Positions 8,012-63,154 of a stretch of DNA of 64,000 nt are shown here, in pieces (within the stretch, counting starts at the first letter, position 1; each line of letters starts with the position of its first letter). Under the pieces are notes generated by a model. The model ran no database searches. It was not told the DNA's origin and saw only the letters and a program-made list of their open reading frames with translations. Both the position numbers and the translations under genes were made by a program. The DNA comes from Haliclystus octoradiatus (lineage: Eukaryota; Cnidaria; Staurozoa; Stauromedusae; Haliclystidae), in contig OU744453.1 of assembly GCA_916610825.1 (NCBI GenBank), forward strand, positions 3,664,724 through 3,728,723. The letters are read 5' to 3'.

Positions 8012-11000
8012 ATGATGAAATCAGCGACGGAATATCACATAATTTTACAAATATGGAGCATAATAATTTTGATGTATTCCATCCAAGTAACAGATGGCAA
8101 TATGAAATATACATTGATGGATAAACAACCAATTGCTGGCAGTAAAGAAATAGAATCATTTCAAGTAAATCATCCAAGTAAATGCGCGGTTCTCTGTGAA
8201 ATTGAAACATCTTGTAATAGTTTTTTGATTTCAATGATCTCATTTGGACAATTTCTATGCCTGCTCTTCGATCGATGTTCTCTTAAAACAACAAATATCA
8301 ATACTACAAATGAGGGATACCCACATTTTTATCGAGTAAGTATACTATTCATGCTTGAATTTGAACAATTTAAAGACTTTAATTTGAGATTTTTATATAA
8401 AACTCCTTTGGTGTTGATTTGATAAAAAAAGTCAACGAAAATTTTTTTCATTTTTTTTTCATATTAATAAACAACGTTTCGATAGTTTCTATAAATGAGG
8501 GATACCCACATTTTAAGTATATTATGTACGAAAAGACTCATTTCATTCTTTAATTGAAACAATTACAGACAATATTTTGGCACAAGCATAATTTATACTA
8601 TTACTTACTGAAATAATTTCTGTGAAATATCATTATTTCACTATCGACTTCAGCCACTAACAAATGAAGTTCTTGGTAGAATTCTTCTATTTTAAGTATA
8701 ATTTTACTGATGAATTTAATTATTTATTATTCATCATTTTTGAAATGAAGGGTTTAGTTTCTATTACTATTATTTCAATTGATGTTATAATAATTATTCA
8801 TTGTAAACAATTGCAAACTTTTTTGATGATTACACTTTTCCACTGCATGCAGTCTATTCGAAATAAAAATGGTATTTGAAGAAGTTTTACGCATAGCAAT
8901 TTGATTAGCAATATTACAATATATAATGAAATGCCACAATCGACCAGGACATTATCCAAATCCCATCTAATGTATTTTGTGAACAACATGAAATGTTATC
9001 AATCTTGAATGCTTATGAAAAACATTAAATGTGGATTTTTTTGCAACGAGGAGTGCCATGTTCTGGGAAATGAACACTTGTTAATAAGTATTCAAGTATT
9101 GTACTAACGATGTTTATTGTAGTCTGTGTTACAGACCGCGAATCATTCACAAAATAATAGGGTCTGTGTGATTTGCGCAGTTCTCTGTCCAGCCACTTTA
9201 CGAAACATAGAGCGGAAGTTTCTGATAGATGCATGGTAAATCTATTGTTCTTAGATAATAAATTCATCAACTCTGTTCGATCAATTAATTGTCATAGCTA
9301 CGAAGCCTAATATAGAACTTATTTCAATCATGTAAACTGAAGTAAACAAAGTAATGTGAGAATCCCGGTGAGAATCACCTTATTGTGTGTGTATCACGCT
9401 TCTCCGTCCCAGGACACTGCGCGGTCAACAATCGTCCGCCATGTTTTTCTTTCTTTAGTTAATGCTTTTATTTGTGTTAAATTTAGTTTACGTTTGAATG
9501 TTTTTCCAGGATTTATATTAGTTTTTATGTTCATTTCTACGTTCATTAATTTTAAATCATTTTCTATCAATTTCAACCATGTATATTTTTGTGCTCCACG
9601 AGGCTTTGGCCAGAATTTTTCTGCCTCTTTCAATGCTTGCTTGGCTGGAGTGTGATCTGGTAGTCTTTGTAGATGGCCATACCATTTTAAACGTCTGGCT
9701 TTAATCTCGAGGCTCCATGGTGATTGATTTGTGAATTTGTACAGGTTAGCATTCGTTGTTTTATCTTCCCATGTCAAATTCATTATTCTTCTTAAGAATT
9801 TTCTTTGAAGTATGTTTATTTGATGTTCGTTATTGTTTGTTAGTGTCCATAACTCACAGTTGTAGAAAAAAATACTTTCTACGTGTGTTCTAAAAATTCT
9901 CATTTTGATTTCAATGTTTATCTTTTTATCTTCGAATAAATACTTTAGTTTATTATATGCGCTTATCGCTAAAATCTTTCTTCTATGTATATCTTTGTCA
10001 GTGTCTAGCATGCTTCCTAGGTATTTGCATGTTTTCCATTCGTCATTATCTTTCTCTCTTTTGATTTTATATTCTTCTGTTTTTGTGTCATTTACTTGTA
10101 GATTATACTTTTTCAACATAGATGGTATTTCTTTTCTTATTTTTTGTAATTCTTGATGAGTATTTGTAATGTAACTTATATCATCAGCATATTGCTGGTC
10201 TATTAAAATTCTATTCTTTTTTTCAATGGTATATGTGTGATCGTGTGTATATGGTGGATTGATTATATTTTTAGTTGTGCTTAATGCATTAGCTAAGTAA
10301 ATTATGAATAACAAGGGACTGAGACAGTCACCTTGTGGTACACCTATATTACTAACTATATTATTTCCTATATTGTTATTTATTTTTACTTTCAAAACTA
10401 CATTTTCTATAAGTATTTTTATCATATGTAATTCGTCTTCATCGACTACTTCTTTTAAAATATTTACAATGTGGTCACGTTTTACAGTATCAAAGGCCTT
10501 AGACATATCTAATAACAATAAGAATATGTTGTAATCTTCTGAGGTTATAGCCTTTTCTGCTAGGATCTTGAAAGCAAAGACTTGTTCAGTGGTGCTCCTC
10601 CCTTGCTGGTAAGCTGATTGTGATTTTGGGATTAGCACCATGAACTTATCTAGACAGCGCCTCAGCATGCATATAGCCAATATTTTCCTGAGTGAGGACA
10701 AGAGAATCACTGGTCTCAGGTTTGCTGCAGGTCCAGGCTTTTTACCTGGTTTAGGGAGGGGTACTAATAAGCCTTCTTTAATCTCTCTTGGGTACGTTCC
10801 TGTTCTTGAAATGTCATTAAATATGTTGGAAATCAGTTGACAGAGCTCATCAGGACCATATTTTAGAAATTCGGCATGCAAGGAGTCAATTCCCGGGCTT
10901 TTACCATTTTTTAAACTTTTGATCGCATCTTTTATTTCTTTCTCTGTGAAGGGGATTTTCATTTCTACGGGATTTATGTTGTGGATTTCTTTTTCTGATG

Positions 11001-14000
11001 TTTTAATAAATATGCTTTGAAAATACTTAGTTATAATATTAATTTGTTGTTTTTCATCAGTAGTGATGCCATTTTCTCCATTTACTATTACTTTTCTTTT
11101 ACTATTTCTTTGTTGTAGATGTTTAACCACTTGAAACATTCTTCTTGAGTCGGGTTTCAGCTTTTCTATTTCCTCTACCAATTCCATAATGTGGGTTAAT
11201 TCTTCCTCTTGTATTTTATTGTGAATTTCCTTCATGATGTTATTGCGTTTTTTTATAAGACTAAGTTTTTCTTTTTTATTATTTGTACTATTTATTTTAT
11301 CTCTAAGGGCTTTTTGTTTATCTGAAAGTTGTAAAATTTCTCTATTTTGACTTTTTTTATTCTTTTTAGTTGTTCCAACAACTTCTTTTGCTGCTTCGCT
11401 GCAAGAATTTACAATATCTGTCCATTTATCTTGAATGGTAACAGAATTTTTAGAGCCTAATTTTTCAATAACTTTGTCTTGATATGCCTTTTTGTTTTCT
11501 GTGCCTTTTAGTGCGTGTATATTTAATCTTTCTTTGGATTTTCTAAATTTAACTTTGTACCATTTTATGTTGAGCTTAGCTTTTACTAATCTATGATCTG
11601 TGTACGTTTCTATGCCACTGTAGGACCTAGAATCTTCTATAAATGGTTTATGTTTTTCTTTCATCATTATATAGTCAATTTGATTTCTGTAGGGATTTTT
11701 CCTTAATGTTCCATTTTTGTCATTATGGTCTTGTACTCTGATGGGTGCTTCCCATGTGGTTCGATGTGCCATTTTATGGGGAAATATGGTGTTGCATAAT
11801 ATCATCTCATTTCTAAGAAGCATTTCTGCAAGTGCCCTGCCATTTGAGTTCATGGTACCTTTACCATATTTTCCTATCACATCTGGAAATTCTTCTCTGC
11901 CAAGACCTGTTTTGGCATTCTGATCTCCTCCTACGATGCAGATATCTCTGTTATTTATTTTCTGAATTACATTTTCTAATTGTTCATAATATTCTTCTTT
12001 TATTTCAGGTTGTTTTTCACTTACATCTAAAGTTGGTGCATATGACGAGATAAATATTATATTTCTATTATTAGTTTTATTATTTCTATTTACAGTGTTA
12101 AGTTTTATAGTGGCTGTACAAATGCGATTAGAAATTCTCTTAAATTCTGCATGGATTCCTTTTTCTATAACGATACCAACTCCATGATAGTTGTTTTCTT
12201 GATTTCCGGTATGAAATACTTCGTATCTTGCCCTTTTATCACTTGTTTGAATATCAAAAATACCTTCTTCTTTTAGTTTTGTTTCTTGTATAGCTAATAT
12301 AGACAGTTTATAATGACACATATCATTTGCTAATTGTTGTCTTTTTAATGCAGTATTTAAGCCTCTTACATTTAAAGTTCCTACATTGAAAACTTGTTGT
12401 ATATTATTAAATGTTTTATCGGACATGGTTGACGGATGTTGATCATGACTTTAAAAAAGCTTCTCTAAGGTAGAGTTTGTGAGGAGTCACCCGTCACAGC
12501 CGGCTTTTGCAGAACCTGTAATATTATATTTGGCAAAATGTTGAGTTTATTACTTACCATGAACGATGACAGATATATTCTTACCTTGTATTGATTTTCT
12601 TTGCTGATTTTTAAACAAATATATAACAATCACAGCGTATTCAAGTTAGCAAGATAATAGATATAACAACAAATTTGAGACCGGGAAGTTCAACTATTTG
12701 ATAGCAAGATAAATAATTTCAGTTTTTGTATAAGGTCTAACTAAACTTATAAATCGTCTCCGTTTCGTTTGCAGACAACAAAAGAAAGAAATATTTGTGC
12801 TACCAAAACGGTATCAAAGTAAACATAAGAAAACGCCCAGTTTTCAAATAAACAAAATAATATAGTACAACAAATTTGTAACCGGGAATTTAATTTTTTT
12901 GGTAACAGGGAAATATTTTTTCAGATTATATAAAGTCTGGAGCTATTAGTATTTAATCTACTCCGTTAATAGCAGACAATAAAAAGAAATTAATATTTTT
13001 GCTACCAAACGGTATCAAAGTAAGCAAAAGAAAACGCCCAGTTTTCAAATAAACAAAATAATATAGTACAACAAATTTGTAACCGGGAATTTAATTGTTT
13101 TTTGGTAACAGGGAAATACTATTTCAGATTATATAAAGTCTGGAGCTATTAGTATTTAATCTACTCCGTTAATAGCAGACAATAAAAAGAAATTAATATT
13201 TTTGCTATCAAACGGTATCAAAGTAAACAAAAGAAAACGCCCAGTTTTCAAATAAACAAAATAATATAGTACAACAAATTTGTAACCGGGAATTTAATTT
13301 TTTTTTGGTAACAGGGAAATATTATTTCAGATTATATAAAGTCTGGAGCTATTAGCTATTAGTAGAATCACCTTAATCTTGCATAATTATGTGACATCAA
13401 TCTTATTCTGATACGAGGCCAGGATAAAGAAACCGTTCAATTCCCACAGACCCTAATCTTTCGTGAATAAATCGCGGTCTGTAACGCAGGCTACGTTTAT
13501 CGATGATCTATATATATTTTGGTATATAATTTGTCTTAAATCGTCTATTGTAATATTGAATGCTAAAGCCCTAAATTGTAATCATTGAATCGTTCTTGAT
13601 TACCAATTGATTGGAATGTTAATATTTACATTTTTGACTTTCAGTCTCAAAATATTATTGGATGTCCTGGTAAGTGAATTAGTGAAAATTGCATTCCACG
13701 CCATTATTTTAAAGGAAAATGCAGAGTAATTAATGGCAATTAGATATTATAGTGGAGCGAAAGACTGCTCGTTTTTGTTGTAGATCAAAATTGTATTACG
13801 AACAAAACATGATCAATTTGTCATAAGTTATCTATAGCTTTTAAGTTCAGGAGCATTCAGTCCTTGGTCTGTTAGAGATTTCATCATTTCACTGATAGGA
13901 ATATTCTGAATTACGCTCAGAACTACACATCGAGAACTTCATACAAAGTTCTACAACACAATAAAGGGTATATCAGCACGGCAGTCATGTTTTGGGATCC

Positions 14001-22582: not shown

Positions 22583-23164
22583 TAAATTTTGCACCTATAA
22601 ATAAACAAGTTTACAAGGTGATTGTTAATATCAACTACTGCATATGCAATGGAAAATGCAACATTATATTATTGTTATTATTATTACTGTATATGAGCAA
22701 AGACACCAGAAAGGCCTCTGATGAGTCCATTGATCCTTGACATTGACGAAACACGTGCCACTACAGCAGTCCAGATTTAATTAATCAAGAGTTGTTATTA
22801 ACTTGGACTGAGCATGTGATATGCACCGAGGTGGTCATAATCCTTACAGTCCGTCAGCAGGACATCAGCAGATGTGATACATGAAAAGTTACGACATTAG
22901 AGATTGATAAATAATTCAAATTTGATGAGTACTTTCATTTGGCCGAATGTTCTTAATTCATGCAGGGATCACTGCATGCCTATGAATATTCAGATGTACC
23001 ATTATATTGGACTTTGAAATATCTTGAAAATGAGATTTGCATCTTTAGCATCTTGTATCATGTAGCTATAATTAATAATTCGTTATCAGATAGACATGGA
23101 TTTGAGATCTTTATCAAGACGATAAAGTTGGTCAAAACATTCTTATATATACACTAAACAAAAC

Positions 23165-35477: not shown

Positions 35478-38400
35478 CAAGTATATAGAAATATTGAGCT
35501 ATAGAAATATAGAAATATAGAAATATAGAAATATAGAAATATAGAAATATAGAAATATAGAAATATAGAAATATAGAAATATATAAATATATAAATATAG
35601 AAATATAGAAATATAGAAATATAGAAATATAGAAATATAGAAATATAGAAATATAGAAATATAGAAATATAGAAATATAGAAATAATATAGAAATTTAGA
35701 AATATAGAAATTTAGAAATATAGAAATAAGGAAATATAGAAATATAGAAATATAGAAATATAGAAATATAGAAATATAGAAATATAGAAATATAGAAATA
35801 TAGAAATATAGGAAATATAGAAATAATATAGAAATTTAGAAATATAGAAATTTAGAAATATAGAAATATAGAAATATAGAAATATAGAAATATAGAAATA
35901 TAGAAATATAGAAATATAGAAATATAGAAATATAGAAATATAGAAATATAGAAATATAGAAATATAGGAAATATAGAAATAAAATAGAAATTTAGAAATA
36001 TAGAAATTTAGAAATATAGAAATAGAGAAATAATATAGAAATTTAGAAATATAGAAATTTAGAAATATAGAAATAAGGAAATATAGAAATATAGAAATAT
36101 AGAAATATAGAAATATAGAAATATAGAAATATAGAAATATAGAAATAATATAGAAATTTAGAAATATAGAAATTTAGAAATATAGAAATATAGAAATATA
36201 GAAATATAGAAATAAAGAAATATAGAAATATAGAAATTTAGAAATATAGAAATATAGAAATATAGAAATATAGAAATATAGGAAATATAGAAATATAGAA
36301 ATATAGAAATATAGAAATATAGAAATATAGAAATTTAGAAATATAGAAATATAGAAATATAAAAATATAGAAATATAGAAATATAAAAATATAGAAATAT
36401 AGAAATATAGAAATAATATAGAAATTTAGAAATATAGAAATTTAGAAATATAGAAATAAGGAAATATAGAAATATAGAAATATAGAAATATAGAAATAAT
36501 ATAGAAATATAGAAATATAGAAATTTAGAAATATAGAAATATAGAAATATAGAAATATAGAAATATAGAAATATAGAAATATAGAAATATAGAAATATAG
36601 AAATAATATAGAAATTTAGAAATATAGAAATTTAGAAATATAGAAATAAGGAAATATAGAAATATAGAAATATAGAAATAATATATAGAAATATAGAAAT
36701 ATAGAAATATAGAAATATATATATAGAAATATAGAAATATAGAAATATAGAAATATAGAAATATAGAAATATATATAATATAGAAATATAAATATAGAAA
36801 TATAGAAATAATATATAGAAATATAGAAATATAGAAATATAGAAATATAGAAATATAGAAATATAGAAATATAGAAATATAAAAATATAGAAATATAGAA
36901 ATATAAAAATATAGAAATATAGAAATATAGAAATATAGAAATATAGAAATATAGAAATATAGAAATATAGAAATATAGAAATATAGAAATTTAGAAATAT
37001 AGAAATATAGAAATATAAAAATATAGAAATATAAAAATATAGAAATATAGAAATATAGAAATATAGAAATTTAGAAATATAGAAATATAGAAATATAGAA
37101 ATATAGAAATATAGAAATATAGAAATATAGAAATTTAGAAATATAGAAATATAGAAATATAAAAATATAGAAATATAGAAATATAGAAATATAGAAATAT
37201 AGAAATAATATAGAAATTTAGAAATATAGAAATTTAGAAATATAGAAATAAGGAAATATAGAAATATAGAAATATAGAAATAATATATAGAAATATAGAA
37301 ATATAGAAATATAGAAATATAGAAATATAGAAATATAGAAATATAGAAATATAGAAATAATATAGAAATATAGAAATATAGAAATATAGAAATAATATAT
37401 AGAAATATAGAAATATAGAAATATAGAAATATAGAAATAGAGAAATATAGAAATATAGAAATATAGAAATATAGAAATATAGAAATATAGAAATATAGAA
37501 ATAATATATAGAAATATAGAAATATAGAAATATAGAAATATAGAAATATAGAAATATAGAAATATAGAAATATAGAAATATAGAAATATAGAAATTTAGA
37601 AATATAGAAATATAGAAATATAAAAATATAGAAATATAAAAATATAGAAATATAGAAATATAGAAATATAGAAATTTAGAAATATAGAAATTTAGAAATA
37701 TAGAAATATAGAAATATAGAAATATAGAAATATAGAAATATAGAAATATAGAAATTTAGAAATATAGAAATATAGAAATATAAAAATATAGAAATATAGA
37801 AATATAGAAATATAGAAATATAGAAATAATATAGAAATTTAGAAATATAGAAATTTAGAAATATAGAAATAAGGAAATATAGAAATATAGAAATATAGAA
37901 ATAATATATAGAAATATAGAAATATAGAAATATAGAAATATACAAATATAGAAATATAGAAATATAGAAATATAGAAAATTAGAAATATAGAAATATAGA
38001 AATATAGAAATATAGAAATATAGAAATATAGAAATATAGAAAAATAGAAATATAGAAATAGAGAAATAATATAGAAATAATATAGAAATTTAGAATTATA
38101 GAAATATAGAAATATAGAAATATAGAAATATAGAAATATAGAAATATAGAAATATAGAAATATAGAAATATAGAAATATAGAAATATAGAAATATAGAAA
38201 TATAGAAATATAGAAATAATATAGAAATAAAGAAAAATAGAAAATTAGAAATATAGAAATATAGAAATATAGAAATATAGAAATATAGAAATATAGGAAA
38301 TATAGAAATATAGAAATATAGAAATAATATAGAAATAATATAGAAATATAGAAATATAGAAATTTAGAAATATAGAAATATAGAAATATAGAAATATAGA

Positions 38401-39612
38401 AATATAGAAATATAGAAATATAGAAATTTAGAAATATAGAAATATAGAAATATAAAAATATAGAAATATAGAAATATAGAAATATAGAAATATAGAAATA
38501 ATATAGAAATTTAGAAATATAGAAATTTAGAAATATAGAAATAAGGAAATATAGAAATATAGAAATATAGAAATAATATATAGAAATATAGAAATATAGA
38601 AATATAGAAATATAGAAATATAGAAATATAGAAATATAGAAATATAGAAATATAGAAATATAGAAATATAGAAATATAGAAATATAGAAATATAGAAATA
38701 TAGAAATATAGAAATATAGAAATATAGAAATATAGAAATATAGAAATATAGAAATAATATAGAAATAAAGAAAAATAGAAAATTAGAAATATAGAAATAT
38801 AGAAATATAGAAATATAGAAATATAGAAATATAGAAATATAGAAATATAGAAATATAGAAATATAGGAAATATAGAAATATAAAAATATAGAAATATAAA
38901 AATATAGAAATATAGAAATATAGAAATATAGAAATTTAGAAATATAGAAATAAGGAAATATAGAAATATAGAAATATAGAAATATAGAAATATAGAAATA
39001 TAGAAATATAGAAATATAGAAATATAGAATTATAGAAATATAGAAATAATATAGAAATTTAGAAATATAGAAATTTAGAAATATAGAAATATAGAAATAA
39101 TATAGAAAATTAGAAATATAGAAATTTAGAAATATAGAAATATAGAAATATAGAAATATAGAAATAATATAGAAATATAGAAATATAGAAATATAGAAAT
39201 ATAGAAATATAGAAATATAGAAATATAGAAATATAGAAATATAGAAATATAGAAATATAGAAATATAGAAATATAGAAATATAGAAATAATATAGAAATA
39301 TAGAAATATAGAAATATAGAAATATAGAAATATAGAAATATAGAAATACAGAAATATAGAAATATAGAAATATAGAAATATAGAAATATAGAAATATAGA
39401 AATATAGAAATATAGAAATATAGAAATATAGAAATATAGAAATATAGAAATATAGAAATATAGAAATATAGAAAAATAGAAATATAGAAATAGAGAAATA
39501 ATATAGAAATAATATAGAAATTTAGAATTATAGAAATATAGAAATATAGAAATATAGAAATATAGAAATAATATAGAAAATTAGAAATTTAGAAATTTAG
39601 AAATATAGAAAT
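35478..39612 (+). repeat. 4.1-kb ATAGAAAT satellite with higher-order pattern
   Basis: Period 8 (ATAGAAAT). Variant units ATTTAGAA, AATATAG (+3-4 bp), AAGGAAAT and AAAAATAT recur in a fixed order, e.g. around 36045, 36415, 36600, 37205, 37825 and 38495. This gives higher-order blocks. The plus strand is almost free of C. ORFs in it are artefacts. Confidence 0.97.
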
Positions 39613-40225
39613 AACTTATCAACAAACAGTAAATATTATTAATGTAGAGATAAAGATTATCGAAATTATCAGGTATATCTATAAAGTAGAAAGCAGACGA
39701 TGAAGCTGAGATAATGCAGGTATTACTCTGATCTTAATGTTAGTGCTTGTGAGATCAGCAGAAGTAATTAAGAATGAATTCTGAGCTCTTGGCAAGCATA
39801 TAAGCAGAGATATCACAGTCACGATGGAAACGTGATCATATTATTAATCCTTGATTAAACTAGATATATTGCATGAGTTTTTACAGGCTTTGAATACGTT
39901 CTTACTTAAATGATTTTCATAGTTATAGCAATATGCATAATCTAAAAGAACCAATGAAAATGTTAAATATGATTCGACCTTTTCCATGTTGTTTTAATAA
40001 ACACCGCGTTTTTACTTAACCTTGCCACCTGCTTCATTTTGCGACTTTCCCACTATATGCAAGCCACTGTTCGATTGATATAGAAGTACTTTTACAATAA
40101 TATTGTAATGGATTGTTTTACTTTAACAAGGCTACAATATAAAACAGAAGGAGCGTGTTAATTATTAAAACTGGAATATTCTTGTAGATACGTGTTGTAT
40201 ACTGTCCTGAAATTTGAATTTTAAA
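39613..40225. other. Spacer and putative promoter of the orphan gene
   Basis: No gene was seen. The 3' part should hold the promoter of the ORF at 40226; no clear TATA box was identified. Confidence 0.4.
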
Positions 40226-51325: not shown

Positions 51326-51547
51326 TAAGTGATAAGTGATAAGTGATAATGGAACATTCGTATAGAGAAGCTGACTATCGAATCATAATATAACCACATA
51401 TCCAAATCTAAACGTTTGCTATTTTAATCTTAGTCTGATGACCTATCTAAAAATCTAATTCTACAATAAAAAATAGTAACACAAAAGAGGACAAGGATTT
51501 GGTGGATTCAAATAGTTTATCTATAATGTATTCATAATAGTAATAAT

Positions 51548-51597
51548 AGCAGCAGACAAGTACATGTTTCTGTCCATTAGCCTTCATCAGTACTGCT
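51548..51597 (-). ncRNA. Hammerhead ribozyme motif D (type I, weak stem II)
   Basis: Core CTGATGA at 51590-51584 and GAAA at 51570-51567 (minus strand). Stem I is seven pairs: GCAG region before the core with UGCUGCU after the cleavage site, including one G-U. Stem III is ACA/UGU with a 6-base loop and cleavage-site triplet GUC (after 51555). Stem II is imperfect: G-C, G/A, C-G, U-G with AAU loop. Catalysis is uncertain because of stem II. Confidence 0.55.
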
Positions 51598-51830
51598 CAG
51601 TGAGCGAACAAGGAACTGACTTCAGTATACACCTAAGTCAAGATGAGTTATAAATGTGGTGAAAAAATTCATCACATGAAAAAAACATCTGTGCCATACC
51701 AGAGTGCTCAAACTACCGAAGTAGTGGGCAATGCATTATGCAAATAGTATAGACACATCCCGAGTCGATAGTGCTCAGAATTGCGCATGCGCAATTGAGA
51801 CATACATAGCAGCAGAGAACAAGTACATGT
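51549..51830 (-). mobile_element. 282-bp hammerhead-bearing element with 14-bp target duplication
   Basis: The direct repeat TAATAGTAATAATA flanks it at 51535-51548 and 51831-51844. On the minus strand it starts ACATGTACTTGTTCTCTGC and ends ACATGTACTTGTCTGCTGC, so the ends repeat. The distal end carries a hammerhead motif (next entry). There is no ORF. Short size, a target duplication and a terminal repeat built from ribozyme sequence suit a retrozyme-like or Penelope-mobilised non-autonomous element. Confidence 0.6.
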
Positions 51831-51849
51831 TAATAGTAATAATATATAG

Positions 51850-52500
51850 TTTTCAAAGTTTTCAAATAACTGCATGCATTTCATGATACAGCATTTCGTC
51901 TAAGGATTAGAAATATATCTAGGCTAGTTACTATAGTTACTGTTGTCACTGATATGAATATCATATTGTAAATATTCTTTATGATGTAACTTTACCCTCA
52001 AGGGCAAACAATTTTTTATGTATATATTAATATCTTAATTATTATTAAAAAAACATTCACTTGAGAATGGCTGAAGTTAATCAGTCGAAACGTTGTGCAA
52101 ACTTAGTTGTGTTGTTATTTTGTACCAAAATTATCATCAAGAAGATTCTGATAAATAATATATATCGCGAAAAATTCAAATAATACACGTTCTTTACTGT
52201 TACTTTACATTTTTTTTTCTTTTCTCAGGCATATATAGATATTATTACAAAGTTATCAAAAAGTCTCCATTCTTTCTATGTTGGTTTTTTTGACACTGGC
52301 GGGGAAAATTGACATGAGAAATGCTCTCTGAGAAATTTTGAACAATTGAGAAAATCTTTTTTGACAACATTTCGATAACAAAAAGTCATTATCAAATCCC
52401 ATTATCAAATGTTTAGCATATAGGCATATAAATTAAATTTATTTGTAAAACGTTGTCTTACTGATTGAACATAGGGCTCAATGCAAAATATAGCAGAGCT
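51850..52500. other. Repeat-fragment zone downstream of the protease gene
   Basis: Contains a CAGTCGAAACGTTGTGC motif (52080-52100) of the GAAACGTT class and a weaker inverse form near 52360-52420. No gene. Confidence 0.4.
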
Positions 52501-52504
52501 TATA

Positions 52505-52615
52505 TAATAAAAGTCAGAGAATCAGAAAATCATGTTTGAATTAATTGCCTGATGATCGCCTCGGCGTGAAACTTCAAGTAGCAAACATGACTGTCTGATT
52601 CTCTGACTTTTATTA
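52505..52615 (+). ncRNA. Hammerhead ribozyme A inside a 111-bp palindrome
   Basis: CTGATGA 52549-52555, stem II 52556-52567 (CGC/GCG plus a possible inner C-G), GAAA 52568-52571. A 3-bp stem III has a UCA loop, and the cleavage triplet GUA ends at 52580. Proximal stem I is TTGC (52545-52548) with GCAA (52581-52584). After an asymmetric bulge on the 5' side, stem I extends another 25-30 pairs to 52505/52615. Positions 10.1/11.1 are U and U. It is antisense to the protease gene and lies 350 bp beyond its stop. Confidence 0.8.
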
Positions 52616-52963
52616 AGTTAAAGTTTCTAAGTTAAGTTAAATTTCTTTCATATAACGTAAACAAATTTTGTAGGATTCTAGCAACGATTTTATGACGAAT
52701 TATTTGGGAATGGCAATTTTACAATAAATCCTTACTGACATACAATATCGTTTGATAGACGAGATCTATTCAAAAAAATATTCAAAATAGTGTGTTACAA
52801 TAAAAAACCGTTTTCACAATTAATTCAGAAATAAGTAAAGAGGGTAGAAATCAAGAAAACACAGACTACTCAATTATTATAATTTAAAATTTTATGAAGA
52901 CACTTCTACATTACAATTATCAATTCATTTTATGCGAAACCTAGGTAATTAGTAGTCAGTTAA

Positions 52964-53194
52964 TTATCCAGAAAAGCGCATAATTTGATCGATCCAAGGC
53001 CTAAGTTCAGCTACTCTTGCAAACACAGTATAGGTTTGTCTAGCACTGCATGTTTTCGATCCCCAACTAACAGCTCCTTGGACTTGCCATTGGCCTGATC
53101 TTGTTTTACAAACAAATGGGCCACCACTGTCACCATGACAACCGGATACAGACGTTCTTCCTCCATGTCCAGCACAAATCATGGATTTTGTAAT
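52964..53194 (-). other. Protease exon 5 (catalytic Ser, stop)
   Basis: Acceptor TCTACATTTAG; starts phase 0 at ITKSMICAG. It carries GCHGDSGGP, AVSWGSKTC and the C-terminal helix RPWIDQIM. Stop TAA at 52964-52966. Confidence 0.9.
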
Positions 53195-54335
53195 CTAAAT
53201 GTAGAACGAAATATGTCGTCATTGTACTTTTTAATTCCGTGCAAGAATTCCAGAACAGGAATATTTAGAATGGACATGAGTTGTATTATATGCTACTAGC
53301 TTAATATTAGGAAATCGTGTAATTTACAATATCCATTCAGTCTCAAATGTGATACATATGTGTACTAGCATATTCTCAGGCACAATACTGCGGAACTATC
53401 TAAATATAGTTCATAGAGCAGAAGTAAGGATATCTTTTTAGACTACTCCATCTATACTTAATTTTTACAAGACTTGTGCTCTTTTGAAATTCGGACAAGA
53501 TGGGGGCTCATCGAGCACCTTGTGTGGTTGATTGTAGTTGAACTTCAAATATTCAGTCCTGTTTTATGCGGCTTTAAAGAGCAAGAGCCGAATAAAAATG
53601 TCAAGACCCAAATCCAGATACCAGCAAAAGGTGAAGATCCTGTCTGATCCGAGTCAAGTGCGGCATTGGTGTAGTCACGTAGTGGCTAGGGAGTTGAACC
53701 ATGGCCAGTAGGGTCTCGGGTCAATCCCTGTCCGGAGCACTATAGATTGGTGTCAGGAAGGGCATCCGGCTATTAAACGCAAACAAGCTTCAAAATACTA
53801 ACCAACTTAACCAACCACCCCAGTGAAAAAAAGCTGCAAGCCTACCCGATTTGTAGATAAATGATAAATCCAAAAACAAACAAAAAAGGATACTTCTGAT
53901 ATGGGAATGATGGAAACTTACCCTGATACGGGTATTGCGGTAGTTGAGACGACTACATTCCTGGTTGCTGACAACAGGAATTCTTGCTTGTTGCAATACG
54001 GGATGCATACGTCCGAATGGATTAATCTTTCCAAAACCTATTAACAAATTATGTATTTTTGTCAATTAAAAACAATTGGCAGGCAAACCTGGCATAAATG
54101 TTGTATATATATATATATATATATATAATAATAATATGTTTCAAATTTAATAAAAATACAAGTATACAAGTACAATATGTATTCTGTCTGATGATCGTTT
54201 AACAACGTGAAACTTCAAGTAACAGCAAAAATGGTGTGTCTTTCTTGGCTCTATTATTATTTACCGCTCTGCTATTTACAAGCATTGAGCACTGTTCACC
54301 TGCCAATACTTTTAAATTTTTATTAAATTTGAAAC

Positions 54336-54374
<39 letters not shown>

Positions 54375-57300
54375 CAGCAGACAAGTATATATATATATAC
54401 ATATATGTTTCAATGTATATTGTATAAGTTTATTAAAGGCACAGTCTTAAACGCATATGTTGTACACCAAACTTGGGCTACTGTTTATTGACGTGTTTAT
54501 GGCATTATCGTAAGGTATCCTTATTGACATTCACTACTGGCACCAAAACCATGATAAGAAATAGTGTTTTCATGGGATTTTCAAGGCATTTTTACACTTT
54601 AATATCGCGAATATGAATGTTTTCATGGTTTTCAAACATTTTATTGGTTTGAAAAATTTGTGGTTTTCACTATTTTACATTTTCATGATGTTTTCACCAC
54701 ACTTTCATGGCATTTTCATGGTTTTTGGTGTTGGTAGTGATTGTCTGATGCTTTATTAGATCATACGTGATTGAAAACGTATACTCTTAAGATGATGCTT
54801 CCGATGCCTACTAGGAAAAATTTATTTTGTAATGAAAGAACCATTTATAATTGGAGACTTTGTCACACACGACTGAAGTATATGTTCTGTTCTAGCGAGA
54901 CTACGTTTTGAACCATTTACGTCTTTAAGCCACCTAGCATCAGTTTCATGTATGCTGACGCTATTTTGTCGAAAAAGATTATTTCTACTGTTGAGATTTG
55001 TTTAGAGTTTTGATATGTTGTTAATCATAAAATTTGACACTATATAGATTCTGCCAAAAAAGTTTCTGTTGCAATTAATGGTGGCTCATTTCATATGATG
55101 ACTGTACTAGTCGTGCAGAAAATGCTTTAAAGAAAGGTTTATCGAAATTACATTTAAATTCATATATTAGATATTTGTTTCAGAATTGACAACAACACTC
55201 GCGGCACTATAATGAATTTGCAGCGGACTTTGATTGTTGTCAGCTGGAATTCTTCCCGTTTGTTCAATTATATGATCAGTATAACTGTTGATTAGTTGTT
55301 TTTCTTACCTGTAATATAGCATTCAGTTCCAGGAGGAGCATTCTCACCAGATTTTGGGAGACATGCAACATTAACACGGCTGTTGAGTCGGGCAGGGGTA
55401 GACAGTCTTACGAGTGCAATATCAGAGTCAAAATGACTGAATGAGAAACGAGAGTGAGTGTAAATGGCTCTGACACGAAATACTTGTTCATGTCCTTCGT
55501 TCTTGTTGAACTGATGATCACCCAATCTAATAAAAATAAGGTATAAAATCATTGTATAATACAATATAATAAAGATGAACATAAATCTTTTATAAACGAA
55601 GTTGGAAAGCTCTTGATCAAAGCTACCGGTGAATAAAGATGAAGGACAATTCTTTGGCAAAGGCTGTCCATTGCAATCCAAAGCAGAAATGCCTTTGTTT
55701 TAGGGACATTTCAAAACAAAAGTATTTTTTAACTACAGTGAAACCTGTATATAACGGCCAGCTACGAGAGGTAGATAAATTGACCACTAGAGAAAGGTGG
55801 CCTTTATATACAGGTTTGATTCAATAGAAAATACTATTTTAGACATTGCAAGAGTGACCACTATAGATAAGTGACCGCTGTATAGGGGTGACCGCTATAG
55901 CAGGTTTGACTGTGTTATATATTTTCAATGTATCTATAGGTTCTAAGTTTGTTTTTCAATTGTGTATATTATTTATAAATAATGTATATAATGGTATTTT
56001 GAGAAATGTATGTTTTTAATTACTATTAAATTATTTAATAAAATTTAGATTAAAAAATAAAATATATAATACTAACAATAATATATATTATTAAAGTCCT
56101 TAATTATATGAAATATTCGAAGGACTGTACAATATTTGAAAGTAAACGTAATCTTATACATACATATTAACGTGTAATATTTGGTCAATATTTTTTTATT
56201 TGTTTATAAAAACAAATGATAATTTAAAATAAAATGAGAGTCAAAAATGAAACATTCTAGATTTCCGCAACTTCAAGTTTCACACCAGAAGGTGATCATC
56301 AGGCGATTTATTTCACGTGAAGATCAGGTGAGTTGAAATAAATCGCCTGATCGATCACCTTCTGGTGTGAAACTTGAAGTTGCGGAAATCTAGAATGTTT
56401 CATTTTTGACTCTCATTTTATATATAAATGCTCTGATTAATTTCATTGAGCACTATACCAAGAACTGATGTGGAACAATCCACCTATTAATATTATATTA
56501 TTATTATTATTATAATTTAAAATGAAAAAAATGTTTTCAGGCTGGATTCAAATTGATGGTTATGTGTCGTTGAAGGCTGAGTGACAGTGCCAAAGCGTTC
56601 CATAAATGATGGTAATAATTAATATAATTATCGTTTTGATAAGCTATAAAATAGGAGCATGGTTGTCAAATCTTTTGTAGCCATTTTGAAATTTTTTATC
56701 TTGAATATAATTGGTATGAAAATGATGCAGAATTCTTTGGTATGATCATATAAGTCAATCGGGAAAGAAAAAACATGAAAAATGTGACACCGGAACTAGT
56801 GCCAGGCTCTTTTCGTTCAAGTAAAATGGGTCTTCTTAAAAAGGTCGGGTGTAAAATTTCTTTTCATAAATCTTAATTATTTTTGCTGGTAATTGTACCT
56901 TGACATATTTGCTTGGATTCTACCGTGTGCTTTTTTTGATTGGTGAAGAAACAAAAAGTTGTAGTATTTTGAAGTTTCAAAAAGCAGTCACGCTCCAGCT
57001 GTTTTAGAAAGTTTCTAAACATCTGATTGAAATAGGTGTTGAATTTGGGCCATTTCTGTGAACACATCGTCAACAATTTTGGCCAAATCGGCGACGTAAT
57101 TTTAAAGATACTCAACTAAAGTTGAGGCTCAACAGCCATAATCATCATTAGTCATCATCATCATCATCACCATTCGTCATGTCAACCAGGAAATTCTAGA
57201 TTAAATCAATCTGGTCTGTGTGGTCGGCGAGTCGGCGGGTCGGTATATTACACCCACCGAAATTAGTTAAATCTCTGTTTATAAGTTATATAAAATTAGA

Positions 57301-60300
57301 ATAAGAGACCAAGTTGAAGCAAACGCCTTTTCCGTTAATTAGAGTTTCACATGTTTAATTGTGGACTGCAGACGTAAGATATAAATTTAATAATGGAATT
57401 ATACGGTAGTTATTTGATGATATTGTATTTATCATACTTTCTTTAAAATTATAATTAAGTCTTGATATTTTTGATATGATGGCTTTGATTCGAATATTGA
57501 ATATCCCACTCCTTGTCATGAGCCAGGAGAGGGCAGGGGGTACTTCGGTAATATTTTGACGGAGGTGTGCCATTTTCGAAAATAGAGGAAAACCGTAGAA
57601 CTTCTCAGCAAATGAGAATTAAAACTCTAAAATTTCATGTTATTACGATAAAAGCAAAGGAAAAGTTTTAAAATTAGAATATCTCTAAATTGAAACCGTG
57701 AAATTTCACAAGAATCTGGAAAAGAAACTTTTTGATAACCGCATGTCTCCGATGTATGAAAGTCTCCCCTCGGAGTCATAAGTTGACTTCCCGCAGCATT
57801 TACCAAATCTCCATTTTTTGTCAAGATATTTCACAAAATCGAAAGCCTATATAACTTACACAACTTTGAATGAGCGTGTTCTTCCTTCTTTTCCTTTAAA
57901 GCAATGTGCAGCACTCAAAACCCAATTTGGATCAATCAGAGTTCCCCCACACATTGGCCCTCCGTTTTCATAAAACAAAGCCTGCCACGGCCATGCTCCA
58001 GATTTAGCGTCATGACCAGAAATAACACGACTACCCATGCTGTATGTGAGGCCACATTCTATGGAAATATGAATAAAGTATCAAAATAGAAAGTGATGAT
58101 ATATTTCGACAATCAGACAATCTGTGTAATGGTATAGTTCTAAGAATGTAGACTTGAAAAAATTCTGTAAATTATACCCCTAACTGAGGATGTAACATTA
58201 GCGTAATTTGCTATCTGTATTTTCCAGTTAAATTTATTTGACAAACATAGAACATACATACGTACATACATACATACATACATACATACATACATACATA
58301 CATACATACATACATACATACATACATACATACATACATACATACATACATACATACATACATACATACATACATACTGGTTTTATTTTCACGGAAGACA
58401 GACGTCTTTTTTTACTGCATGACTTTTTGCAAATAAAAGGTACAATATATGCCGTAATATCAAATTATTTTAGTTAAACAATACACAATATATATGACAT
58501 AAGTCACCAGATACAAAAGATGGATGTAGAAAGCAGCAGTACCATCAATCCAGTGCTGGTAAGCCCAATGGAAAATTTGAACAAGGTAAATGATGTCCAG
58601 TCTAGCAATGTAAAAACTAGCATACTGGATAAAACATACCGTAAAGGTACCAATTATCTACAAAGTTTGCAATTTAATACAACTAATACAAAACTATGGA
58701 GAGAGGCTATTGAAAAGTATTACCAAAATAAGAACATGTTTGTGAACAAAATAAACCACGAAAATCTTACGCTACACACAATTCAAATATACACCGACCA
58801 GACAAAGAAACAAAAATACTTACAATTTGAAGTTAGAGATACAACTGGCAATGCATTTATCACTTGGATACATGGTATGAATAATTTTTACAATACAGAA
58901 TTTACAGAAATACAATCACTAATCCCTTGCTCACTCCAGCAGACAGGACAAAACGGCGGCCATCTTGAATTAACCGAAGGAGACGGTCAACCATGTGCTC
59001 ATTGCGCAAGTGAGGTTGAAAGTCCGCGTCTGCGTTGCCATGACTGCACCTTGCCCATTCACCTCAAGTGTTTCACAAACAAAAGCGGGAATGAAATTGA
59101 TGCTGAAACTGCAGCAATTCTTTTAAGTTTTCCAGGCATCAGAGCTCTGTGTTCTCACTGCAGCAGTTCTGATGTTTCAATACTGGAAACAGTAAAGGCA
59201 ACAGAATTAAAAACAAAAGCCATTTCACAAAAGCTAGACAGTTTAACAGCATTAATTTCTAATAAACAAACATATGCAAACATCACTGCCACATCACATG
59301 TACAACAACACCCTACTCAGTTGAGAAAAGAAACAACTTCACCACCCACCCAATCCTATGCGGCAGTACTCAGTATACAAAATCAACAACAATTGCACGA
59401 AAAAGCAATTAAAAATATCCAGGAAAGAGAGAAACGTAAGCTCAATGTCATTGTTCGAGGATTAGAACCTGACAAGGAACTGTCTGACAAAAGGTTAATA
59501 ACTGTAATATGCAAAGACGCCTTAAACATAGATGTCGAAATTGAATCCACAAAAAGACTGGGAAAAGCTGATGGCCTCCGGACCCAACCCATCCAAGTGA
59601 AATTAAGAACAATTGAAGGAAAGAAGACAATGTTAACATCAGCAAAAAAGCTTAAAACTTCTATCGCTACTGAAGGGATATACTTTTCGCCAGACTATAC
59701 CATTGTAGAACAAAAACTCCACTTGGAACTTCGAGTTGAATGTAAGAAGAGGAATGAAGACTTAACAGATGAAAAGGAGAGGTGGATTGTAAGGAGTTTA
59801 CAACTGACGCAAGTAAAAAACCTCAACCAAAATGTATCTCAGAATGCAGACGACCATCAATGACTCAATAAAACAGCACCCATTGAAATTATGACTACCA
59901 CCACCGCTAATGTAAAAGAAACAGATAACAAAATTCTTAGTATACTCTCTATCAATGCCCAATGCTTAACATCTGTAAGACTAGCAGAACTGCAAATATT
60001 CATTGTACACCATAAAATTGACATACTACTACTACAAGAGACATGGCTCCAACCTGAATCAATGGATTGCAATATATCTGGTTACAACTTATACAGAAAT
60101 GACAGAGACGGTAGACATGGTGGTACAGCCATATTTTACAAAAATAACTTAAAATTAAAAATTGACCTAACATTGACGAAGCAAGCAAAGGGCATCCAAT
60201 ATGAACAATTAGCAGTACAACTATATACTTCAAGCAGTGACAGTATCTACATAATAGATTGTTACAATCCACGCAATGATAATTACTTACAAGCCATTGA

Positions 60301-63154
60301 AAATATCCGTACGACAGCAGAAGCATTGACAGAAAAGGGATGTGGATTCATCCTGGCTGGGGATTTTAATATAGACCATTTAAAACATTCTCCTTCCAGA
60401 ACTTTGCTAATGGAGACATTGGATCAATTTGATTTACACTCGCATAACACTGCTCCGACACGCATAACACATCAAACTCAAACTTCAATTGACTATCTTA
60501 TCACTTCACACTCCTTTAAATCCAACATAACTAAATGCACGCCAGAGGATGTGTGCAGCTCTGATCATCTTGGTTTAGTAACCATAGTAACCCTGGACAA
60601 AAATAAATATACAAAAAAATCATTGAAATGCACTCGATCGTACAAAACATTTTGTCGAGAAGAATTTTGCAACGATTTGATAAACAGTGATATGTCAGTT
60701 TTTACGTCAGCTATACAAAAAAATGACGTACAATTGGCTGCTGAAAACTTACAAACAATATTAAAAGTAGCGCTAAACAAACACGCTCCTGAAAAGGTCA
60801 TTGCCCTGCATCCAAATTATGCACCATGGATGACAATAGAGCTAAGAAATGCACTCAAAAAACGCAACAAAATGCGCTATAAGGCTATGAGAACAAAACA
60901 ACGACACGATTGGGAATCATATCGCCAGGTACGAAATCAAGTGAATACTGACTTGCAAAGAGCAAAGATTGAATACAACAAAACTAAATTTATGGAATGT
61001 GGAAGTAACATGAAAGAGGTATGGGATTTAATTAAAAGATTAACAAAGAAGACAAAACAAAAATGTACAGCTACTACTAAAGCAGAGCTAGATGAAATCA
61101 ATTCTTTCTTCAGCGAAGTTGGACAAAATATCAAGGAGATCACACACACAACTCCATCCTACGACAATATTCAACAAAATGATCAACAATTCAACTTCAC
61201 TGAAATATCGGTGATTGATACAATCAAAGCTGTTGGCATGCTTCCAAATTGGAAGGCACCGGGTGATGATGGACTGAATGGTTTTGTTATTAAAGCTGCA
61301 TTACCAGCCATTGCTACACCACTCACTCAACTGATCAACCTTTCATTAAAAACATCTACCTTTCCAACAATATTCAAGAACACTATTGTAAATCCAATTC
61401 CAAAAACACCAGCAGCCTCAACGCCAAACCAGCATCGCCCATTAGCCCTATTATCACTGTTGTCAAAAATTCTGGAAAGAGTGGCGTATGTTCAACTATA
61501 TCCGTTCATCGCACCAATCTTAAATAAGTATCAGCATGGTTTCAGACTCGGAAGATCGACAATAACAGCTCTCTTAAATATCACCGAAGAAATTTTCAAA
61601 ACAATGGATGAACATCAGGTATCGCTACTTTTATTAATGGATTTATCAAAAGCTTTTGATAGTCTTCAACATGACATTTTGCTCCATAAACTGAAATTAT
61701 TTGGACTCTCAGACAAAGCCTTGGAATGGATGCGATCTTACCTTACTGCAAGGAAGCAAGTAGTGAAAGTAGACAATATTTATTCTAGTGAAGTTATATT
61801 AACTTGTGGTGTTCCCCAACGATCCATACTTGGGCCACTACTATTCCTTATTTACGTAAATGACCTACCCAATGCCATATCATCTGGCACTGTTGGACAA
61901 TTTGCAGACGACACGCAAATCCTGTATAAGTACAATCCAAAAAAACCAGGCTCACTACCTGAAATAGAATCAAAAATAAATGCTGATTTACAAACACTTA
62001 CGTCCTGGTTCAACTCAAATTCGCTTTTACTCAATGCCAAGAAAACACAAATTCTATCCATTGTTCATAAGAAAGTAGCAAATACGCAACTGCCACTGCT
62101 AAAAATAAACAATGAAACTCTTTCCTATACCCCTTCTGCTCGAAACCTTGGTATCACATTCGACAAAGATATGAGCTACAAGCAACACATCAACCAAATC
62201 TTAAAGACAGCATCACATCGAATATCAGCAATAGCAAAACAACGTCGGTACATTCCAAAACATCTTTTTACCCGACTTGTTGAATCAAAAATTGTAGAAC
62301 CAAGCTTATATGCTCTTGAAGTATTTTCATCATGTACAAAAACTCAATTGCGTAGGGTACAGATTGGAATACAAAATTGGGCAGCCAAATTAATCATAGG
62401 GAAAAGAAAACATTCACGAATGGAAGACGCATTGAAACAATTGAACTGGCTGACAATTGAACAAATTGTTGAATTAAGAACAGCTACAACAGCTCACAAA
62501 TCAGTTTTAGGCATTAATGGCGCTAATTTACAATCTCTTTTTACCAAAGCTAATTCAAATTATAACACTAGAAGAAAATCATTTATACTTCCACGTGTAC
62601 ATACTGACCGCGGAAAACGTTCTTTCTCCTTCCGTGGAGCACAGTTGCTAAATAAATATAATCACTTAGAAAATTATAATAAATACCAATATAAACAAGA
62701 AGTAATGAACTTATTGCGAACATAATAAATCAACAGTTTAAAATAACCTGATAGACATCAAGAAACAACTGCAATTATACCTAGAAAAACCATATAGCCT
62801 TTTAACCTACATAAGTTATAATAGCCACTTGAAAATTGTATTAAGTTGTTTACATGTCTCAAAATAAACTACTATCTATCTATCTATCTATCATACATAC
62901 ATACATACATACATACATACATACATACATACATACATACATACATACATACATACATACATACATACATACATACATACATACATACATACATACATAC
63001 ATACATACATACATACATACCATACATACATACATACATACATACATACATACATACATACATACATACATACATACATACATACATACATACATACATA
63101 CATACATACATACATACATACATACATACATACATACATACATACATACATACA

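Follow-up and report, generated by a model that had tools for sequence, protein, structure and literature searches.

The window analyzed here is a stretch of 64,000 nucleotides from the staurozoan Haliclystus octoradiatus (C10:3664724-3728723, contig OU744453.1, of a 262-Mb genome in 33 contigs). It contains three hammerhead ribozyme motifs, A, B, and C, which look like pieces of the pseudo long terminal repeats (pLTRs) of Penelope-like elements (PLEs). It is very probable that the three are minimal type I hammerhead motifs residing in the pLTRs of several abundant PLE families, that they would act as dimers in elements spread by target-primed reverse transcription, and that a fourth motif beside them belongs to a nonautonomous retrozyme. 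The motif, its pairing, the compensatory changes, the copy number, a unit in which two pLTRs enclose an open reading frame (ORF), and head-to-head solo copies were all observed directly. The kind is already known, that of minimal PLE hammerheads, here with an adjoining retrozyme, and the window is a rich example of it.

Hammerhead motifs in the window

A search of the window for the pattern CTGATGA-N6..30-GAAAC gave 6 matches, with 0.29 expected, and none of 100 shuffles reached 6. An earlier sequence-only reading had proposed three hammerheads with a CTGATGA...GAAAC core, starting at 52549 (+), 54188 (+), and 56302 (-), and both the sequence and the pattern search bear this out. The pairing that it described is also present, in stem II (A, CGC(C)/(G)GCG; B, CGTT/AACG; C, CACC/GGTG) and in stem I (A, TTGC/GCAA; B, CTGT/ACAG; C, (U)CGC/GCG(G)), as are the cleavage triplets GUA ending at 52580 in A, GUA ending at 54221 in B, and GUU ending at 56269 in C. 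All three motifs have the CUGANGA...GAAA core and the NUH cleavage triplet of a type I hammerhead. That reading was silent on positions 10.1/11.1, at the foot of stem II, where U faces U, unpaired, in A, B, and C; the standard pair at this place, a usual and not strictly defining feature of type I hammerheads, is absent from all three. The PLE-type features of the window are as follows.

52541-52590, + strand: hammerhead A, PLE type; core 52549-52580, predicted cut after 52580; 64.8 bits with model R1
52505-52538, - strand: inverted partial tail arm of A, 94% complementary to 52582-52615
54178-54370, + strand: 5'-truncated pLTR of PLE family B, with hammerhead B (core 54188-54221) and 3' tail
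54094-54165, - strand: inverted tail fragment of family B beside hammerhead B, from comparison with the family B unit
56259-56310, - strand: hammerhead C; core 56302-56269, predicted cut after 56269; 55.9 bits
56339-56391, + strand: opposite half of the C palindrome, where the motif recurs but its core is broken (CTGATCGATC); 45.1 bits
30887-30936, - strand: further PLE-type hammerhead, core CTGAAGA, G.U at 10.1/11.1; 38.6 bits
23894-23945, - strand: decayed PLE-type hammerhead; 18.4 bits

The last two lie outside the interval of the earlier reading. The scores of A, B, and C (64.8, 63.6, and 55.9 bits) are those of training copies of the scoring model. Hammerhead A is flanked by 34-nt inverted arms (52505-52538/52582-52615), and the start of the first of these misses the base that follows the predicted cut by 1 nt. 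Hammerhead C sits in a palindrome with 69-nt arms that are 100% complementary (56229-56297/56353-56421). Matches of MIR172 on C fell below the threshold of that family and were discarded as a consequence of the palindrome. Exons of a trypsin-like serine protease, read by eye from the sequence and the ORF list, seem to flank copy B (window positions ~52900-55700, - strand).

Pairing and compensatory change

Pairing was counted on cores taken from loci fetched from the genome, which carry L numbers here. From 53 cores, 30 rows were picked by eye. The 23 left out comprised 4 with other types at 10.1/11.1 (two A.A, one A-U, and one G-C) and 19 U.U cores that were near-duplicates or visible point mutants; two of the rows kept also lack U.U (L036:527, C.U; L032:655, U-A). 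Over the 300 cells of this set, 95.0% were paired, compared with 88.6% after shuffling, and 31 cells carried a double change, compared with 11.6; neither figure was reached in any of 500 shuffles. Sliding the partner strand lowered pairing to 21-50%.

Because these rows had been hand-chosen, the count was repeated on all 47 distinct U.U cores found by pattern in the fetched loci, none being dropped. In the stem I and II cells of this set, 90.3% were paired versus 80.3% in shuffles (the highest of 2,000 being 83.9%), and 55 cells were compensatory versus 18.5 (the highest of 2,000 being 35). The shuffles leave relatedness in, so these pairing and covariation figures are not probabilities. The compensatory change that had been claimed for stems I and II is present in both sets, and pairing among genomic copies is kept above the shuffled level in the 47 U.U cores. 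Of the three helices that surround a type I hammerhead core, stems I and II are thus supported by covariation, and the three proximal pairs of stem III are invariant in the 30-core set and constitute evidence neither way. In an unselected listing, stem II had at least 3 pairs in 75 of the 100 matches listed, and each of the 12 stem II inserts that recurred among the matches listed had at least 3 pairs. The sequence-only reading had taken the covariation as the mark of an RNA fold selected while one family spread. The compensatory change stands; A, B, and C differ in family, however, so that the covariation is between families.

Abundance and the foot of stem II

In the 262-Mb genome, a pattern requiring the core, U.U, and a short stem III occurs at 3,237 places (1,619 and 1,618 on the two strands), with 0 for the reversed-pattern control; the 100 places listed included 75 distinct sequences. 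A pattern in which 10.1 is not U and 11.1 is not A gave 239 places (reversed control, 1), and 100 of these, listed and read by eye, were mostly A-U or G-C types, with some C.U that resemble point mutants. These counts cover U.U versus 10.1-not-U with 11.1-not-A, mixed states (for example, U at 10.1 facing a letter other than U) falling outside them. Among the states counted, U.U is by far the commonest, though others exist, and sister families in the same genome carry A-U and G-C at 10.1/11.1. The core of family B alone has 100 exact copies in the genome.

These features are close to those of the minimal type I hammerheads of PLEs (Cervera and de la Pena 2014; Lunse, Weinberg and Breaker 2017; both through PMC7761336). 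Those motifs likewise have a short or missing stem III, a location in PLE pLTRs, and thousands of dispersed copies; set beside them, the motifs described here are dominated by U.U at 10.1/11.1 (3,237 versus 239 places). An axolotl retrozyme provides a published precedent for U.U at this place: its type I hammerhead, HHR_Amex2, is described in PMC7229834 as having a U U mismatch at the base of helix II. The monomer of HHR_Amex2 reached 22% self-cleavage in 1 h, and dimers performed much better (PMC7229834). HHR_Amex2 sits in 350-bp tandem retrozymes, in contrast with the motifs described here, which sit in PLE pLTRs.

Penelope-like carrier elements

The fullest unit was found at locus L017, where a 299-bp direct repeat (1096-1394/3565-3863, spacing 2,469 bp) lies around a reading frame that is interrupted by one stop codon in that copy. 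The family B core occurs within both repeats, at reference positions 235 and 2704, and the hammerhead of family B thus lies inside the pLTR. The truncated pLTR of the window (54178-54370) is 98.96% identical to this unit. Both arrangements expected of PLEs are present: pLTRs on either side of an ORF, and inverted pLTR copies that carry a tail.

The coding sequence of L017 contains the blocks FDIENFYPSI, GSYDGAE, and YRDDGLA, which we take to be reverse transcriptase-like, and a C-terminal NYIGLTE...R...H...CRHENK domain, presumably of the YIG type. By eye, the coding pieces of L017, L018, L020, L023, and L027 share these blocks and the C-terminal domain. Moreover, coding sequence related to L017 adjoins motifs of two further families (L020, L025, and L027; L023). 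Full coding units were seen for the family of B, and A and C were placed by motif, palindromic layout, and tail. Six peptide patterns taken from the L017 protein recovered nothing closely related to it in viral contigs.

The layout of the family B arms was established from 30 fetched loci, several of them overlapping, together with the window. As a rule, one arm stops close to unit position 2779, and its head-to-head partner reaches ~2859 or beyond; short copies are often 5'-truncated 9 to 30 nt before the core. Neighboring exact B cores within 5 kb were head-to-head (-/+) in 25 cases, tandem in 3, and tail-to-tail (+/-) in none, and a single tail-to-tail case appeared within 10 kb. Several family B units are >99% identical over a kilobase or more. 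A DNA-transposon origin of the palindromes, as miniature inverted-repeat elements, was dropped: reverse transcriptase- and YIG-type coding lies between the same repeats.

A similar organization was reported for Penelope of Adineta vaga (PMC3846280), which shares with the copies described here direct and inverted pLTRs, one of them shorter and one carrying a tail, as well as palindromic head-to-head junctions. Its ORF, given as a reverse transcriptase plus GIY-YIG, would be a further likeness, the blocks in H. octoradiatus being read by eye. The host is a different one, and the word "hammerhead" is absent from PMC3846280. The head-to-head palindromes of A. vaga were explained there by self-priming. 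At locus L048 (C1:3064050-3065000), positions 408-510 hold head-to-head arms with hammerheads of different families and 14 nt between the cores; these mixed-family arms do not fit self-priming on one complementary DNA. PAc (Poseidon) of Anolis, as described in PMC11167929, is likewise a PLE with a hammerhead, located at the pLTR-ORF junction, and has AT-rich targets.

The neighboring retrozyme

The minus-strand core match at 51566-51590 belongs to a retrozyme, a different type of element from A, B, and C. The insertion and its target-site duplication (TSD) are as follows.

51549-51831 (283 bp), - strand: retrozyme insertion, ~1.1 units of a 260-261-bp repeat; core 51590-51555 on the minus strand
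51536-51548: left copy of the TSD, 13 bp, AATAGTAATAATA
51832-51844: right copy of the TSD, 13 bp, AATAGTAATAATA

In this copy stem II is decayed (GGAC, compared with GGCC in the common core), and A.A occupies 10.1/11.1. The retrozyme core CTGATGAAGGCTAATGGCCAGAAACATGTACTTGT has 385 exact copies in the genome, and many of the 100 listed stand in direct tandem at 260/261 bp; the unit in L080 measures 260 bp. Hammerhead units of 150-450 bp in tandem, the lack of an LTR, and a long TSD define metazoan retrozymes, and the copy at 51549-51831 shows all of these. The metazoan non-LTR retrozymes covered in PMC7229834 have the same type I-like core, tandem units (260-261 bp elsewhere in the present genome), and long TSD, and the window copy differs from them in its A.A at 10.1/11.1 and in a TGAGCACTAT stretch that it has in common with PLE tails. 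The claim that the fold of the cluster is the type I hammerhead known from PLEs and retrozymes is supported.

The retrozyme unit shares the TGAGCACTAT stretch with the PLE tails. GAGCACTnT occurs twice in the L080 unit and twice in the window copy, and GAGCMCTnT occurs within 200 nt downstream of the core in at least one fetched copy of 19 of the 47 PLE core types, many fetched PLE copies being short arms that lack a tail. Of random 200-nt stretches, 1.0% contain GAGCMCTnT, and the chance of accidental sharing is bounded solely by these stretches, drawn from the window. PLEs have been proposed as the movers of retrozymes (in the review PMC7761336), and a shared tail stretch is what this idea would predict. 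A 183-bp canonical retrozyme-like repeat of the same genome had no GAGCMCT within 300 nt of the core in the five loci examined.

A sequence at window positions 22718-22759 (+), CTGATGAGTCC...GACGAAACACGTGCC, looks like a decayed relative of a canonical type I hammerhead. The related canonical type occurs at 117 places in the genome, some in 144- or 183-bp tandem arrays.

Triloop pair and the dimer model

The loop of stem III is mostly 3 nt long (ACU-xyz-AGU). Of the 64 distinct motifs whose loop has this length, 53 have bases x and z that could form a Watson-Crick pair, against 24.5 in permutations; among distinct triloops the ratio is 10 of 16, with 6.0 expected (P=0.036), and in the 47-core set 39 of 40 triloops have a standard x/z pair. 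Because a 1-nt loop cannot close within one molecule, the x/z pair points to a duplex between two copies. The covarying triloop bases would thus fit a dimeric hammerhead, a symmetric protein site on DNA being the alternative reading. Cleavage of the minimal PLE hammerheads is thought to require dimers (PMC7761336).

We propose that in PLE transcripts two copies of the motif may meet through the near-palindromic ACUnnnAGU segment and form a dimeric hammerhead, in which a duplex of ~8 pairs would serve as the shared stem III. Such a dimer would cut after GUA or GUU, perhaps helped by the PLE protein. Target-primed reverse transcription into AT- or ATT-rich sites would have produced the copies, in many cases with 5' truncation near the hammerhead. 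For PAc of Anolis, the account in PMC11167929 reports that cleavage required the PLE protein and that no RNA reads began or ended at the cut.

Evidence against and alternative explanations

Several results weigh against the hammerhead interpretation. The usual pair at 10.1/11.1 is G-C, and U.U departs from it. The Rfam covariance-model search, which the sequence-only reading had named as a test, found no family at threshold in the window, and a scan of 50-58 kb found no hammerhead family up to E=10. The control for stem II alone was weak, with at least 3 pairs in 59% of 61 distinct inserts versus 50% of chimeras; chimeras pair nearly as often because CGC/GCG is common to many families. Single motifs A, B, and C were no more stable than shuffles (z of 0.35, 0.73, and 0.07). 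Only 13 of 30 cores had a dimer hammerhead fold better than their best monomer fold counted twice, and only 5 of the 30 had one that lay no more than 5 kcal/mol from the best dimer fold. For the coding sequence, no match in Pfam, NCBIfam, or PDB confirmed a reverse transcriptase or GIY-YIG identity, and a PHROGs search gave one weak match only, to a family of unknown function.

The Rfam result cannot decide the matter, because the canonical hammerhead family of the same genome (117 places) also gave no match at threshold in the five loci tried, and Rfam was rejected as an arbiter on this ground. When two of these loci were rescanned, L092 gave RF00163 at 25.2 and 21.7 bits (threshold, 34) and L085 gave none. 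In eight other loci, Hammerhead_HH9 was found weakly at the L020 and L080 motifs (21.7 bits; threshold, 52; E=0.27). The folding energies are mixed and do not prove the fold: wherever the monomer hammerhead fold could be scored, in 26 of the 30 cores, the dimer hammerhead fold came out below the doubled monomer value; in the other 4 a 2-nt loop makes the monomer hammerhead fold impossible, and three of the 30 dimer hammerhead folds have positive energy.

The weak RNA folds of single motifs, the position of the copies in palindromes, and the dyad symmetry of the stem III segment would also be expected if the motif were a near-palindromic site on DNA (ACTnnnAGT with flanking dyads) for a dimeric endonuclease/reverse transcriptase of the element, the pairing then reflecting DNA symmetry. 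This is very unlikely. Stems I and II lie outside the dyad yet covary separately, the letters that are kept (CTGATGA, GAAA, and NUH) are those of the hammerhead core, and sister motifs of the same genome have a hammerhead-like standard A-U or G-C at 10.1/11.1. A better case, although still an unlikely one, can be made for a fold that worked in ancestors and survives in inactive relics, their abundance due only to hitchhiking on the spread of PLEs. Fewer than 3 stem II pairs in 25 of the 100 matches listed, U.U at the foot of stem II, the broken partner arm of C, and the stop codon in the L017 reading frame agree with such decay. However, the recurrent stem II inserts all retain at least 3 pairs (12 of 12 among the matches listed), the B core is repeated letter for letter 100 times, and several B units exceed 99% identity over a kilobase or more, all of which speak against it.

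Insertion ends and possible cleavage in vivo

The ends of insertions were compared with the predicted cut. In family A, the element failed to resume beyond the junction at 11 of the 25 places found for +1, at 10 of the 13 for 0, and at 4 of the 14 for -1; these junctions were read by eye, and each pattern misses about a quarter of them. At +1, 5 of the 11 ends share nearly one junction with a TTG overlap. Of the 10 ends at 0, 4 have a GC overlap in common, and a short tandem repeat accounts for one more. A nearby family A seed (100 places listed of 377) gave three ends at 0, one of them possibly at -1, and two upstream ends, near -8 and -12, many of its places being satellite units. A seed farther downstream (100 listed of 442) gave 4 ends at 0, 5 at +1, 3 at +2, 2 at +3 (one in a satellite array), 1 at +4, 1 at +6, 2 at +10 (one an internal deletion), 3 at +13, and 1 at -1, with none at -2 or -3; at -4 there were 2 more, one of them plainly misassigned, and at -5 another 8, which were taken as an edge effect. 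Of the 22 ends scored from +13 to -1, one of which is the internal deletion, 12 fall at 0 to +2. In family B (100 listed of 147, read by eye), no end fell exactly at the cut; two were at +3, single ends lay near -1 and near -2, and a further end was ambiguous. A sharp peak of ends exactly at the cut was therefore rejected, +1 being as common as 0 in family A and family B having none at 0 among those listed.

The ends of the inverted pLTR arms of family A nevertheless pile up at 0 to +2 and fall off upstream. For this reason we considered that the PLE hammerhead might cut the transcript in vivo and that the cut RNA might template integration. The TGAGCACTAT stretch in PLE tails and the 260-bp retrozyme led us to add that one shared PLE machinery might move both. 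This combined proposal is unlikely; the ends near the predicted cut in family A are suggestive and no proof of cleavage in vivo. The pile-up probably reflects either stops of the reverse transcriptase at the folded motif or joining at the TTG, TTGC, or GC overlaps provided by stem I. Family A ends at +1 as often as at 0 (11 of 25 versus 10 of 13 places), the TTG (5 of 11) and GC (4 of 10) overlaps recur, and family B has no end at the exact cut among the 100 of 147 places listed, all of which favor this explanation. What speaks against it is the scarcity of family A ends just upstream, with 4 of 14 places at -1 and, among the 100 of 442 listed, 1 at -1 and 0 at -2 or -3. Overlaps and reverse transcriptase stops explain the ends as well as cleavage does.

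Tandem satellites with 72-bp and 79-bp spacing (C1:30858167-30863144 and C1:38701497-38701855) include family A sequence from just 3' of the hammerhead.

Other features of the window

An array of an 8-bp repeat, ATATAGAA, extends over 4.1 kb (35483-39613, ~512 copies), and the GC skew reaches 0.99 at 36-38 kb. Two long ORFs of the long interspersed nuclear element (LINE) type, with RVT_1 and Exo_endo_phos domains, lie at 9394-12450 (-) and 59864-62725 (+), and the latter is directly preceded by a 461-codon ORF at 58478-59863.

Significance

PLE hammerheads are already known, and their role in PLEs is called a mystery in the review PMC7761336. If the proposed use of the cut RNA as an integration template were true, it would give the PLE hammerhead a place in the integration cycle. 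H. octoradiatus offers, in one host, a sister series of ribozymes with U.U, A-U, and G-C at the foot of stem II and with many stem II and stem III variants. The same host adds retrozymes with A.A and with canonical cores, plus hundreds of mappable insertion ends. Together, these make both the dimer action and the link between cleavage and integration directly testable.

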